This document shows, in pieces, positions 21,504-28,577 of a stretch of DNA of 40,352 nucleotides. The position numbers and the translations under genes are program-made. The number at the start of each line of letters is the position of its first letter. Within the stretch, counting starts at the first letter, position 1. Under the pieces are notes generated by a model. The model worked only from the letters and a program-made list of their open reading frames with translations. It was not told where the DNA came from and did no database searches. Source of the stretch: Methanobacteriota archaeon (GTDB taxonomy: Archaea > Thermoplasmatota > Poseidoniia > Poseidoniales > Thalassarchaeaceae). The stretch covers positions 1 to 40,352 of the forward strand of contig PBMO01000016.1 of the NCBI GenBank assembly GCA_002722595.1, given 5' to 3'.

Positions 21504-21929
21504 ATGAGCCAAATAATTACATTCAGCGTCGATAAGGAGTTTGCCAGTAGGCTGGATGATTTTATCCAGAAAACTGGATACAAGAATAGAAGCATGTTTC
21601 TTCGCGATGCGAGTCTTCACTTTGCGGACGCCTCATTGAGAGGAGATATTGATTCCATGGATGCAAAACAGGAAATTGAAGGAACAGCAGTGGTATATTT
21701 TCAACATCATGTTGAAAACAAATTGGCTGATTTACGGCATTCAAGTTTGTTCAAAATCACATCATATCATCACAACTGCCTCGCAACCAGCCATACGTGT
21801 GTAGATACAATGCAAGTAAGTGGTAAGGCTGGGGCAATAAGAGAAATGATCAACGGTCTAAGAAATACAAAGGACGTCGATCGAGTGGAATTTATTTCAG
21901 CTCCATTCCGAGAAGATGGATGTTGCTAG
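21504..21929 (+). CDS. NikR/CopG-family ribbon-helix-helix metal-responsive regulator
   Basis: RHH: IITFSVDKEFASRLDDFIQKTGYKNRSMFLRDAS; C-terminal domain with GTAVVYFQHHVENKLADLRHSS...SYHHNCLATSHTCVDTMQVSGKAGAIREMINGLRN resembling the NikR ACT-like metal-binding domain. Confidence 0.85.
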   Translation: MSQIITFSVDKEFASRLDDFIQKTGYKNRSMFLRDASLHFADASLRGDIDSMDAKQEIEGTAVVYFQHHVENKLADLRHSSLFKITSYHHNCLATSHTCVDTMQVSGKAGAIREMINGLRNTKDVDRVEFISAPFREDGCC

Positions 21930-22811: not shown

Positions 22812-24323
22812 ATGGGCGAAGCATATGGGCAACTGATGTCAAAGATGAAAGAGATAGAAACTGTAGGCCAAATACAGGGACTTCTAGGTTGGGACCAAGA
22901 GGTTATGATGCCTCCAAAAGCCGGACCACTACGTGCAGAACAATTGGCCTGGCTTTCACGCACTAGTCACTCGATGATGGTTGAAACAGAGATGGGTGAG
23001 GTATTGTCAGCAGCGGAAGAAGAAGGAGCGGATGATGAAATCACCGCAGCGAATCTTCGCTTAATCAGAGATGCATATGACAAGGCCACAAAGAAACCAG
23101 CAGATTTCGTAGAACGCTTCGCTCGCCATAAATCAAAATCAATTAGGTCTTGGGCAGAGGCACGAGAAAAGGATGATTTCTCAATTTTTAGAGATGACCT
23201 TGCAGAGATGATAGACCTTAATCGAGAGCTTGCAGAATATCTTGGATACGATGACAATCCATATGATGCGCTGTTGGATATTTATGAATCAGGGCTATGT
23301 GTTGCTCAAGTAGATCCTCTATTCCAGGGCCTTCGAGAATCCCTAGTGCCGTTGATTGCCGCAGTGGGAGAATGTGAATCCCCTGACATGTCATGGGTTG
23401 AAGCGAGTAATTGGGGTGAAGATGCTCAAGCCCAACTATCACATGGGATTTCGGCAGCAGTGGGTTTTGATTTCGATGCGGGGCGACGTGACAAATCCAC
23501 CCACCCATTTTGCGGCGGAGCAAATCCTGATGATGTTCGGTGGACTACTCGGTATGATGAAAACGAACCCTTCGGTTCCCTTTATGGTTCACTTCATGAA
23601 ACGGGTCATGGTTTGTATGAACAAGGCCGGCCTCGCCAACTAGATTTCCAACCATCAGGTCATGCCAATGGATTGGGTGTGCATGAATCTCAAAGTAGAC
23701 TTTGGGAAAATCAAGTTGGGCGTTCCCTTGCATTCAGTGAGTGGGCAATTCCACATTGGTCCAAACACTTCCCTGAAAATATGGAAGGAGTTACTGGAGA
23801 AATGTTGTGGCGTAGTGTTAACCTCATCGAGCCGAGTTTGATACGTGTTGAGGCCGACGAGGCGACCTACAACATACACATCATGATTCGCTACGAGATT
23901 GAGAAACAACTCATCAATGGGGAGTTAGAGATTGATGATTTACCTGATGCTTGGGATGACATGTATGAACAATACCTCGGCGTACGTTCGCCTGATCGGA
24001 AGCAAGGAGTATTGCAAGATATCCATTGGTCAATGGGTGCTTTTGGATACTTCCCCACATACACACTTGGAAATTTGTATAGTGCCCAATTGCTCGCAGC
24101 AGCAAGATCGGATTTAGAGAGCGAACAAACTCTAGAAGAGATGTGGGCCGTTGGGAATTTTGCACCTCTTTTAGATTGGATGCGAAGCAATGTCCACGAA
24201 CGCGGTAGTATTTCGACACCAGCTGATTTGATCAAAGAAGCAACGGGCCAACCACCATCACCTCAACCTTTTATCGATTATTTACGAAATAAGGTTGAAC
24301 GCCTTTACAACGTCACTGTTTGA
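22812..24323 (+). CDS. Metallocarboxypeptidase, M32 (Taq) family
   Basis: HETGH zinc motif in GSLHETGHGLYEQG; LGWDQEVMMPPKAGPLRAEQLAWLS; GVHESQSRLWENQVGRS; IRVEADEATYNIHIMIRYEIEKQLI. Confidence 0.94.
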   Translation: MGEAYGQLMSKMKEIETVGQIQGLLGWDQEVMMPPKAGPLRAEQLAWLSRTSHSMMVETEMGEVLSAAEEEGADDEITAANLRLIRDAYDKATKKPADFVERFARHKSKSIRSWAEAREKDDFSIFRDDLAEMIDLNRELAEYLGYDDNPYDALLDIYESGLCVAQVDPLFQGLRESLVPLIAAVGECESPDMSWVEASNWGEDAQAQLSHGISAAVGFDFDAGRRDKSTHPFCGGANPDDVRWTTRYDENEPFGSLYGSLHETGHGLYEQGRPRQLDFQPSGHANGLGVHESQSRLWENQVGRSLAFSEWAIPHWSKHFPENMEGVTGEMLWRSVNLIEPSLIRVEADEATYNIHIMIRYEIEKQLINGELEIDDLPDAWDDMYEQYLGVRSPDRKQGVLQDIHWSMGAFGYFPTYTLGNLYSAQLLAAARSDLESEQTLEEMWAVGNFAPLLDWMRSNVHERGSISTPADLIKEATGQPPSPQPFIDYLRNKVERLYNVTV

Positions 24324-24362: not shown

Positions 24363-25520
24363 ATGGAGGGCCAACCATTTCGAGATTTACGCGAAATGGC
24401 TTGGTTTGAAAGACAAATAGATGCTAATATCAGTTGCATACACTTAGATGGAGAACGTTTGATTGTGGGCGATTGGGATGGTGGCATTCATTGTTGGGAT
24501 CTCAATGGGGAAAACCTTTGGTCCACAAAAACGAGTAATAGAGTCGGTAATCTTAGTCTTTCCAAGAACATGGTTTACGCTGTTTGTGGACGTGATTTGA
24601 CTGCTATTGAATTGTCTACAGGGGCAATACAATGGAATAGTGAGTTAGAGGGCAGTAGTGATTTAGTAGCCAGCACACAAGATGGAAGCACAATTATTGC
24701 AACATCATCAATATTCGATTTAGAAATGAACGATTTTTTAGAGTCTACGATTTGGAGATTTAATCAGGATGGAGATTTGTTATTCAAAGAATCCATCGAC
24801 GAGCGCCCATGGTCTATTGAGATGCGTGGAGATGGAACAGCCTTCCTTGCATTGGGACGGCCTCGATGTGGCATGATTAGAATAAATGAAGAAGGCGCAC
24901 GTCATATGACATTACCAACAAATTCGCCAGCAACGTGTGGACGTGTTGGTCCAAAATATTCGATTATTGGCCATGCAGATGGCACACTTACAGGACTAGA
25001 CACAGGCCTAGTTTTGGATGATGATGATTTCACAAATCAGCCTGGGCCAATCGAAGCCATATCAAGTGCAGAGATTGGTTATATGGTCGCATCATCCATT
25101 GAAGATAATTCAGGGATATCTGATTCTAATACAGTTCGAGGTATTGCGCGTTCTTATGATGCCAAAGGGAAATTAGTTTGGCAGATTGAAACCATAGGCG
25201 GTTGCATTATTGAACATGTAGAGCATGGGCCCGAGTTTGACAGCAGTGCAACAGCTTGGGTTGTTTCTTGGGACAAGATAGACTCTACAATAATCGTCAA
25301 TTCTGCAACACAAGATAGGCAATATGCTATTTTCAGCGAACCTTCACGTGTTAATGCAATACAGGCATACGAAGATTTCATTGCAATAGGGTTTGATAAT
25401 GGTAGATTGATTCTGCTCCAGGGAGAACTTCTTCACAGGAGACTATCCCAAAAAAGCGAGGATCATTCTGACGAAAGGCGCAACAAATTGGCTGAAAAAT
25501 TGCGACGTCTCAGGTCCTAA
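24363..25520 (+). CDS. PQQ/WD40-like beta-propeller protein
   Basis: Repeated beta-strand pattern: LIVGDWDGGIHCWDLNGENLWSTKT, LTAIELSTGAIQWNSE, IIGHADGTLTGLDTG, ARSYDAKGKLVWQIE, IAIGFDNGRLILLQ. Confidence 0.8.
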   Translation: MEGQPFRDLREMAWFERQIDANISCIHLDGERLIVGDWDGGIHCWDLNGENLWSTKTSNRVGNLSLSKNMVYAVCGRDLTAIELSTGAIQWNSELEGSSDLVASTQDGSTIIATSSIFDLEMNDFLESTIWRFNQDGDLLFKESIDERPWSIEMRGDGTAFLALGRPRCGMIRINEEGARHMTLPTNSPATCGRVGPKYSIIGHADGTLTGLDTGLVLDDDDFTNQPGPIEAISSAEIGYMVASSIEDNSGISDSNTVRGIARSYDAKGKLVWQIETIGGCIIEHVEHGPEFDSSATAWVVSWDKIDSTIIVNSATQDRQYAIFSEPSRVNAIQAYEDFIAIGFDNGRLILLQGELLHRRLSQKSEDHSDERRNKLAEKLRRLRS

Positions 25521-25599
25521 AAAATATCAATTCTGGAATCGCCCTTCCATCGGAAACAGGGGTCGGGTTGCCTGATTTCTGGTGGAAAGATGCATATTT

Positions 25600-26290
25600 C
25601 TCACAAAGGTTTATGGCCCTCCGCTTCACACGTGACTTTCGCCGCTCCCGAGGAGTGGTGTCGGAGTGCCCAGTACTACCGGCAGGCCCCAAGCCCACAA
25701 GGGACCCAATTCGGGAACGGCGGTGGGCCACTATTCCGAGTTAAATCGGAGTTGGTGGGGTGTACGGCCAGCAGTAATGTTGGATTCGTAGACCTACAGG
25801 AGAGAAAGCGTACATTTCGGTGTACAATGGATACTTCTGTGAACAGTGCATTAGAGTTGGGCTCTAGTGCATACAGACACATTGTGTCTGAAATCACAGG
25901 AGATGTCTGCTCGTAAGAGCAGGGATCATTCGGAAGGAACTAGCAACATATACACCTTGCGAAAATCTCAATCAAAGGGAAACAATGGAAGCCGAAAGGT
26001 GACCTCAGGGACCTAAAGAAAGAGGTAATTGCATAACAGTTGAGTTGTGAAAAGTCGGCTGGAAAAATCCCTCAACGCACAATCCTGTGCTGGCATCTGA
26101 AGGCTCTGCCTGAAGACCGCCGGGGACGAGAAGGCTGCAGCTAGATCGTTCCAGGAAGGGTTGCAGCAATGCATACCTGACCAAAGGGGGGAACAGGGTG
26201 ATAGCAATATCAAATCCTGCTCCTTGGTTGATTGAAATCGTAAGATGGATATTGCCAAGGAGAGACGTTTTCCGCAAGGAATCGTCTCTC
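25600..26290 (+). ncRNA. Candidate structured RNA region, 5' part (multi-hairpin; pseudoknot-compatible block at its 3' end)
   Basis: No credible ORF. Hairpins on + strand: CCGCTCC-CGA-GGAGTGG (25642-25658); GCCCAC/GTGGGC (25693-25698/25723-25728); GTACAT-TTCG-GTGTAC (25810-25825); GTGCATTAGAG-TTGGG-CTCTAGTGCAT (25846-25872); CAGACAC-ATT-GTGTCTG (25874-25890); CTGCTC-GTAA-GAGCAG (25907-25922); GCACA-ATCC-TGTGC (26077-26090); pseudoknot pairs CAATATC/GATATTG and CTCCTTGG/CCAAGGAG (26205-26262); GAGACG...TTCC-GCAA-GGAA...CGTCTC (26262-26288). Confidence 0.6.
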
Positions 26291-26542
26291 TCAGGGACGC
26301 CGGATTAGAGAAATCTGATTCGGGAACTGGTGGAGAGAAAGCAGTTTTCGGACTGTGGACAACACATCGGGAAGTGAGGTAGGTAACTACCTCAGGCGTC
26401 TGAGGATAGCTCGATGCGCTTGCGCATCGGGCTACCCGACCGAGATTTGGAAAACGTCTTCGGACGAAGGAAGGATTTCGGATGCGGAGGCTGGCTGGCG
26501 GGGAAAGATCTACTCGATTCGAACCTGCCAGTCAGTACTCCC
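26291..26542 (+). ncRNA. Structured RNA unit, copy 1
   Basis: CCGGATTAGA-GAAA-TCTGATTCGG (26300-26323); CAGTT-TTCG-GACTG (26342-26355); TGAGGTAG-GTAA-CTACCTCA (26375-26394); 12-bp variable hairpin 26407-26434; CCGAGAT/ATTTCGG (26440-26446/26475-26481) enclosing CGTC-TTCG-GACG; long stem 26486-26502/26524-26541 with 21-nt loop. Confidence 0.72.
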
Positions 26543-26619
26543 AATTCCCACTCCAGGCTGATTTCTTCGCAAGAAGAGAGCAGTTAGGAGGTGCATGCAG
26601 ACTGCAAGGAATGCGTGTG

Positions 26620-26867
26620 CCGGGCGCCGGATTAGAGAAATCTGATTCGGGAACTGGTGGAGAGAAAGCAGTTTTCGGACTGTGGACAACACATCGGGAA
26701 GTGAGGTAGGAAACTACCACAGGCGTCTGAGGTAAGGAAGATGTGCAAGCATTTTCTGCACCGGCCGAGATTTGGAAAACGTCTCCGGACGAAGGAAGGA
26801 TTTCGGATGTGGAGGCTGGCTGGCGGGGAAAGATCTACTCGATTCGAACCCGCCAGCCAGCACTCCC
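26620..26867 (+). ncRNA. Structured RNA unit, copy 2 (paralog of copy 1)
   Basis: 86 nt identical to copy 1 (26298-26383 vs 26625-26710) and a second block with only 5 differences in about 104 nt (26440-26543 vs 26765-26868); the intervening hairpin is completely different in sequence but still forms a hairpin. Confidence 0.72.
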
Positions 26868-26978
26868 AACTTCCTCTTGGAGGAATAGGGGCCATCCTAA
26901 TCATTCACCTTTTCATGTTTGCGAAAGCAATCCACCCACAGAGGTCGTTTTCCTCGTGATTACACATATCGGAATATC

Positions 26979-28577
26979 TCATAGCCTGGGGCCAATCATA
27001 TTCTCCGGTCTGACCCACTCATCGAATTGATCATTTGTCAGTAGGTTGAGTTGTAGCGCAGATTCTCTGAGCGTAATCGATTTCTCATGAGCATTTTTAG
27101 CTATTTTTGCAGCATTATCGTACCCAATATGGTTATTTAATGCAGTAACTAGCATGAGAGAATTTTCCAAATGTGATTGTATTGCATCGTGGTTTGCTTC
27201 AAGGCCAGTGATACATTTGTCTGTGAATGCATGGCATGTATCTGCAAGTAACCTTGTGCTGTGTAATAGGTTATGGATCATCATCGGTTTGTAGACATTC
27301 AATTCGAAATTGCCTTGGCTGCCGCCGATTGAAATTGCAGTATTGTTGCCCATTACTTGACAGCAAACCATTGTCATCGCTTCAGCTTGGGTGGGGTTTA
27401 CTTTCCCAGGCATTATACTCGAGCCCGGCTCGTTTGCAGGTAGTGAAAGTTCCCCAAAACCACACCTTGGTCCAGAACCCAGCCACCGGATGTCATTTGC
27501 AATTTTCATCAGGCTAGCTGCAAGTGTGTTTAGTGCACCACTTGCTGATACAATTGCGTCATGTGCAGCAAGTTGTGCAAATTTGTTTTCAGCACTGATG
27601 AACGGTAAACCCGTTTTTTCAGCAATATGGCCTGCTACCGTTTCAGCAAAATCAGGATGCGTATTCAATCCAGTGCCTACAGCGGTTCCTCCGAGTGCAA
27701 GTTCAAACAGGTCCTCGAGTGCAAACTCAATTCTTCGTATATCTGAATCAAGCATTGACACGTAGCCACTGAATTCTTGTCCTAGTGTCAGTGGAACTGC
27801 ATCCATGAGATGGGTCCGACCAATCTTGACAACGCTGTCAAACTCTTTTCCCTTATTTGCAAGAGCATCCCTCATTTTACGAATGGCGGGAATCAATTGG
27901 TGGTGAAATGATTCAGCACTTGAAATGTGCATTGCAGTAGGAAAAGTGTCGTTTGATGATTGTGCTTTATTTACATGGTCATTTGGGTGCACAGGTTCCT
28001 TCGAACCAAGGACACCACCTGCCAATTCAATTGCTCTATTTGCAATCACCTCATTTGCATTCATGTTGGTCTGTGTACCTGATCCAGTTTGCCAAACTCT
28101 TAGGGGAAAGTGACCATCCAATGAGCCATCAATAACCTCTTCACACGCTGATATAATCAATTCACCAACAACAGGGTCGAGCATGCTCAACTCACAATTC
28201 GTCATTGCAGCTGCCTGTTTTAAGATCCCAAATGCACGAATAACTCCTCGAGGCATTGTATCGTCACCTATGTCGAAATTAATCAGCGAACGCGCAGTTT
28301 GGCAGCCATAGTATTTGTCAGCAGGGACTTCTAATTCACCCATGGTGTCAATTTCAATCCTTACATCACCTGGTTTTGATGAGGCCTTTCGCTCTTCAAC
28401 TGCTGCTTGAAGTGGTGCAGCGTTTTGTCCATCGAGGGCTTCTTCAATCATCCTCGAAATAGTAGCACTTCTTCCTTCATTTCTTCCTCTTCCGACTCTC
28501 CGATCCAGTCTTTTTGCAATGTTCTCTGGTATGCTTATACTCATGATTCTGCGGTCGCCGGCTCTATGCTTCGCCAT
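26979..28577 (-). CDS. fumC: Class II fumarate hydratase with N-terminal ribbon-helix-helix domain
   Basis: Fumarase: [73 protein letters not shown]; signature [12 protein letters not shown]-terminal ~75 aa RHH-like: [40 protein letters not shown]. Confidence 0.93.

Follow-up and report, generated by a model that had tools for sequence, protein, structure and literature searches.

What, if anything, is encoded by a 1458-bp gap (25521-26978) lying between a beta-propeller gene on the + strand and a convergent fumarase gene on the − strand is the question raised by this locus, found in the genome of a member of the Poseidoniales (Marine Group II), which are among the most abundant planktonic archaea. 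The window analysed here, i.e. the whole stretch of 40,352 nucleotides, had been the subject of an initial annotation made from the sequence alone, which drew attention to the gap as ORF-poor and far longer than the others; the gap is real, with the upstream + strand ORF stopping at 25520 and the fumarase gene occupying 26979-28577, and the contrast with the rest of the window stands, the remaining intergenic gaps reaching ~240 bp instead of the ~200 bp or less then given. The upstream neighbour (24363-25520, + strand) is a PQQ/beta-propeller protein (Pfam PF13360), whose relatives in the genus are recorded under names like Candidatus Thalassarchaeaceae and Marine Group II, and its gene is preceded by that of an M32 carboxypeptidase (22812-24323; PF02074); the convergent neighbour is a class II fumarase (PF00206/PF10415). 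Separately, we observed that the fumarase carries an N-terminal extension of ~65 residues (28390-28577, − strand) resembling a ribbon-helix-helix DNA-binding domain, with a weak match to RHH_1 (PF01402) below the cut-off (E 0.0014), and that this extension is apparently absent in some relatives (genus g7 and several sister-family genera). A NikR-like nickel regulator (NikR_C, E 3e-8) is encoded a few genes upstream at 21504-21929 (+ strand). Annotations show the gap itself as empty or filled with spurious ORFs, which is why the locus has escaped notice.

DNA matches to the locus were found in 16 of the 17 other genomes of the genus (E down to 1e-247, over up to 1.3 kb), mostly at 71-77% identity, and the adjacent protein shows 53-59% amino-acid identity in most members; within this genus the RNA locus is thus better conserved than its protein-coding neighbour. 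All 11 genera of the family have a non-coding stretch of 0.6-1.45 kb between the propeller gene and fumarase, its G+C content is above that of the upstream gene in most of them, and a conserved 5′ region is present in 118 of 129 family loci. The fumarase gene has moved away in several genomes with the peptidase-propeller-RNA order retained, and the propeller gene is the most faithful neighbour, staying adjacent even where fumarase has relocated. In the sister family at least three genera are clear (g12, g14 and g22; E 1e-10 to 1e-16), and there too the neighbours are fumarase and the propeller gene, as far as the contigs reveal them. The RNA was not detected in the well-sampled sister genera g9, g10, g11 and g13, which include a one-contig genome, suggesting either loss or divergence there, and the 23 genomes from the rest of the class, i.e. 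outside the order, were likewise negative. It is usually present as a single copy per genome. Model R1 was weak on sister-family sequences and on those of g4 and g7, and model R2 was mostly silent on the core-family genera, since it models the long form of the 3′ hairpin. From this distribution the RNA has apparently been carried since the ancestor of the Poseidoniales, and it would not be universally essential given that several sister-family genera seemingly do without it.

Conserved structure was assessed with our own implementation or with tools other than R-scape. Folded as a single sequence, 25641-26872 had an energy of -539 against -408 ± 9 in dinucleotide shuffles (z about -12 for a 980-nt piece), and contained 17 GNRA/UNCG loops compared with 0.8 ± 1.0 (maximum 4) in the shuffles; the reverse complement had none. 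The genus consensus comprises 34 hairpins, 22 of which are capped by GNRA/UNCG tetraloops in most sequences. The tetraloops listed in the initial annotation (25816 UUCG, 25913 GUAA, 26274 GCAA, 26310 GAAA, 26347 UUCG, 26383 GUAA, 26459 UUCG, 26674 UUCG, 26710 GAAA and 26784 UCCG, all on the + strand) are loops of consensus hairpins at just these positions and nearly all are kept in relatives, whilst the loop at 26458-26463 swaps between UNCG and GNRA, the UUCG at 26459 being GNRA in 10 of 15 relatives, as expected of a structural hairpin. For 13 full-length genus sequences the RNAalifold consensus energy was -824, against -430 ± 27 in null alignments generated by simulating the same substitutions along the tree; 123 pairs had changed on both sides versus 51-69 in this null, and non-standard cells numbered 217 versus ~600-660. 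The reverse strand of the genus alignment gave only -683 and, together with the restriction of GNRA/UNCG loops to the + strand, this bears out the transcription sense proposed earlier.

The middle of the RNA cannot be aligned between genera, so family-wide MAFFT alignments mixing all genera yield few alifold pairs, and the structure was therefore analysed by genus and by terminal domain. The 5′ region had a family-wide consensus energy of -70 versus -4 ± 2, and among seven core genera -101 versus -28 ± 4 with 9 of 53 pairs significant. The 3′ hairpin GCGGAG...CUCCCA was 97.7% paired over 22 sequences of both families, with double changes at 9 of its 16 pairs, slid controls at 31-54%, and none of 500 shuffles as good. 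Covariation among homologs is hence present, dispersed over many helices and not significant pair by pair: the strictest test, over all column pairs in the genus (18 sequences, 1.1 million pairs), returned one significant pair and had power for one pair only. The RNA structure is under selection along its whole length, and we regard it as virtually certain that the locus encodes a structured non-coding RNA.

The predicted RNA covers about 25641-26893 on the + strand (~1.25 kb, from the consensus structure and covariance model match), so that the earlier proposal of a structured ncRNA of ~1.3 kb is upheld for the RNA but not for the whole gap. Its predicted 5′ end lies at GCCGCUCC, and a 5′-domain covariance model built without the window's genus begins its match exactly at 25641. 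The 5′ domain (25641-25683) consists of two hairpins (25641-25648/25652-25659 and 25660-25669/25673-25683) with 100% of cells paired in the genus, and the 5′ hairpin is order-wide. It is followed by the 5′ strand (25685-25690) of a probable closing helix, GGCCCC/GGGGCC, whose 3′ strand is at 26888-26893, and we place the 3′ end of the RNA directly past this helix. The closing helix is 97% paired in the genus, and most genera of the family have an equivalent of altered sequence, at a level weakly above that of controls; it was not seen in genus g4 or in the sister family. We grade it as probably real but family-limited because its support over controls was modest overall (score 14.9 versus 13.2 ± 0.2 shuffled and 14.0 swapped). 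Within these ends are a large branched central domain (25718-26122, closed by 25718-25724/26116-26122), in which many helices have changed on both sides (e.g. 25759-25773/25778-25794 with 11/14), and a second large domain (26185-26550, closed by 26185-26190/26545-26550).

A tandem duplication of a ~255-nt 3′ module, absent from the initial annotation, occupies 26295-26552 and 26622-26877 on the + strand (93%/92% identical); it is found only in the window's genus, the module being single elsewhere. Each copy carries the signature 3′ hairpin, at 26483-26543 (model R2, E 1.9e-16) and, as the terminal copy, at 26808-26868 (E 1.3e-17; 19 bp, 100% paired in the genus), and there are two R2 matches in most genus members and one elsewhere. 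Accordingly the length to the 3′ hairpin is 1.22-1.25 kb in most of the window's genus and ~0.43-0.84 kb in other genera. The duplication (26295-26877) looks recent and is common to most of the genus, and three members (G004, G006 and G002) have a single R2 match, some perhaps through contig ends. The locus is a single RNA with an internally duplicated 3′ module, and not the cluster of separate tandem ncRNAs that had been offered as an alternative.

Ahead of the RNA, at a fixed distance, lies a conserved block, GAAAGGTTTAT, and we assign 25545-25640 to promoter DNA and not to the RNA. The block includes a BRE/TATA box at 25604-25614 on the + strand (AAAGGTTTAT; family consensus CGAAAGGTTTAT). 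Of 118 loci, 111 have a TTTA-to-CCGCT spacing of exactly 32 nt and the other 7 one of 31 nt, over spacer nucleotides that are not conserved; as fixed spacing over an unconserved spacer is the geometry of an archaeal promoter, we assigned a BRE/TATA promoter and start site here. A search with the promoter-plus-hairpin pattern matched 115 of 324 genomes of the order, versus 2 for the reversed control. The RNA very likely has its own promoter. Further upstream, an inverted repeat, GGAAA-N19/20-TTTC[C/T] (25552-25580, + strand), has its two arms at -58 and -33/-34 relative to the TATA box. Because it is invariant in sequence, fixed in its offsets family-wide and free of compensatory changes, it looks like a regulator site in DNA, and the idea that it forms a hairpin belonging to the RNA was rejected on the same grounds.

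With a probability of about 0.62, we read the locus as a stand-alone gene for a large structured RNA with a dedicated promoter, acting in trans as a housekeeping scaffold. We favour this because the RNA has its own promoter, has no same-strand gene downstream and is separable from fumarase, and because it shows steady synteny, is usually present in one copy, evolves slowly and carries many tetraloops. RNA polymerase would start at ~25641 from the BRE/TATA promoter with its conserved upstream element, transcribe ~1.25 kb towards the convergent fumarase gene and stop short of it. The transcript would fold into a multi-domain structure with >30 mostly tetraloop-capped hairpins between the conserved 5′ hairpin pair and the conserved 3′ hairpin, probably shut by the GGCCCC/GGGGCC helix, and with its GNRA loops docked into receptors it would most probably act in trans as the core of a ribonucleoprotein or as an RNA-only assembly. 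Of the parts of this reading, action in trans rather than in cis is likely, whereas a scaffold-type mechanism has in our estimate somewhat less than an even chance.

Neither a cis-acting role on the propeller mRNA nor regulation by antisense pairing fits as well as a trans-acting scaffold, though each has some probability. A regulatory role through pairing with mRNAs, such as control of the neighbouring fumarase, would account for the conserved convergent arrangement, but the predicted RNA end precedes the fumarase stop codon, the RNA lies away from fumarase in several genomes, and structural selection extends over the full length rather than being confined to one unpaired seed, which makes such a role unlikely. 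We think it similarly doubtful that the RNA is, or contains, Tan1 (Thalassoarchaea ncRNA 1), the only ncRNA of Marine Group II that we found in the literature. Tan1 was reported in 2016 as an abundant unknown ncRNA of 229 nt in these same archaea, with a complex predicted structure and homologs at 75-79% identity, in a data set where 93% of Marine Group II RNA-Seq reads came from 13 ‘mRNAs’ of intrinsically disordered proteins (PMC5069720). The group, the structure and the degree of conservation would suit our locus, but its RNA measures 430-1250 nt to the 3′ hairpin and should appear as a far longer transcript; the comparison is by description only, since the published text gives neither sequence nor locus (PMC5069720). 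With no Rfam family and no published description found, and set apart from Tan1 by description only, the RNA is probably undescribed.

Considerably less probable is that the RNA forms a structured 3′ UTR, possibly a processed one, through which the beta-propeller mRNA is controlled in cis in its stability or termination: the RNA does always follow directly after the propeller gene on the same strand, but a dedicated BRE/TATA box of fixed spacing and the inverted repeat intervene between the stop codon and the RNA, and its size and complexity far exceed those of usual 3′ UTRs.

That a known RNA (RNase P, SRP, rRNA, an intron or a guide RNA) has diverged past recognition is highly improbable, even if the usually single, housekeeping-like copy would be in keeping with it. 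A scan of the window against Rfam 15 (including OLE, ROOL, GOLLD, HEARO and IMES) gave no matches at gathering thresholds, hence no family covering the gap, and below these thresholds only chance-level scores in the locus (E 0.17 and worse); the Rfam families for group I and II introns, as well as those for C/D and H/ACA guide RNAs, were without a match at the locus. RNase P RNA and SRP RNA, neither of which had been recognised in the initial annotation any more than rRNA, intron or known guide RNA cores, are encoded elsewhere in this genome, the former at G000:C4:26971-27267 (RNaseP_arch, E 3.6e-67) and the latter as a partial match at G000:C44:17407-17510 (Archaea_SRP, E 1.3e-9), and both are also found in most relatives, SRP RNA being full-length in most of these. 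A leader or riboswitch was likewise rejected, as no same-strand gene lies downstream of the RNA, the next gene being convergent here and at the other loci that retain the fumarase neighbour.

That the locus is a decayed gene, or codes for protein in some unusual frame, can practically be dismissed even though the − strand has long runs free of stop codons in some genera. Codon phases are flat, few indels are multiples of three (only 15/103 and 30/317), and the synonymous share is 0.24-0.34 in each of the six frames, whereas the neighbouring gene, used as positive control, reaches 0.60; against decay there is also the slow evolution of the locus. The − strand ORFs, rejected as genes by these codon tests, reflect a purine-rich + strand, codon-like evolution is absent in every frame, and a Pfam search of the short ORFs found nothing, in line with the lack of recognisable domains noted before.

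A related promoter and 5′ end were observed on a viral contig, L238 (IMGVR_UViG_3300007514_000005, 72 kb; also L251), which carries terminase, portal, tail, family B DNA polymerase and chaperonin genes. At L238:1526-2030, outside long ORFs, the same promoter, GGAAGGTTTAT, occurs with exact spacing together with the 5′ hairpin, TTGCCGCTCCTGTGGAGTGGTGTG, and the ~470 nt that come next are mildly structured (z -2.2); the match to the RNA is limited to the first ~60 nt, and only one such viral contig was found. The last part of the contig (L238:2455-9394) contains short ORFs only and ~36 copies of AAATTTGTAGC, many of them arranged as the palindrome GCTACAAATTTGTAGC. It also has promoter-like CGACAGGTTCATAAGGG units and at least one further ncRNA-like stretch with an CGAAAGGTTTAA promoter at 2457. 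Looser promoter-pattern matches in viral contigs were nearly all chance matches inside ORFs and were rejected, and the pattern for the 3′ hairpin lacked the stringency to be informative there. A speculative extension, which we consider rather unlikely, is that the RNA is a chromosomal large ornate RNA forming an ordered RNA or RNA-protein particle in these abundant, uncultivated archaea, and that its promoter and 5′ end were copied by a tailed archaeal virus of magrovirus type (L238), which would exploit the host particle or compete with it.

To our knowledge, large structured RNAs without an assigned role are uncommon, and the named examples considered, OLE, ROOL and GOLLD, are from bacteria and bacterial phages. 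For the RNA described here, alignments and covariance models are now available, and its expression can be checked in marine metatranscriptomes. Like the single-copy structured RNase P RNA (RF00373) and SRP RNA (RF01857) of archaea, it is a structured archaeal RNA, but it differs from both, which have loci of their own elsewhere in this genome (for SRP RNA, a partial match). With OLE, ROOL and GOLLD, large ornate RNAs that assemble into RNA multimers (PMC12286853), it shares a length of hundreds of nucleotides, a stand-alone nature and an intricate multi-helix structure without a known catalytic role, and the large size, extensive pairing and covariation-supported structure that serve as the criterion for such RNAs are all found at this locus. 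It differs from them in being archaeal, chromosomal and vertically inherited beside core genes, and it has no sequence match to them and no Rfam hit, whilst the scaffold role that we suggest for it would parallel the proposed working of the large ornate RNAs (PMC12286853).
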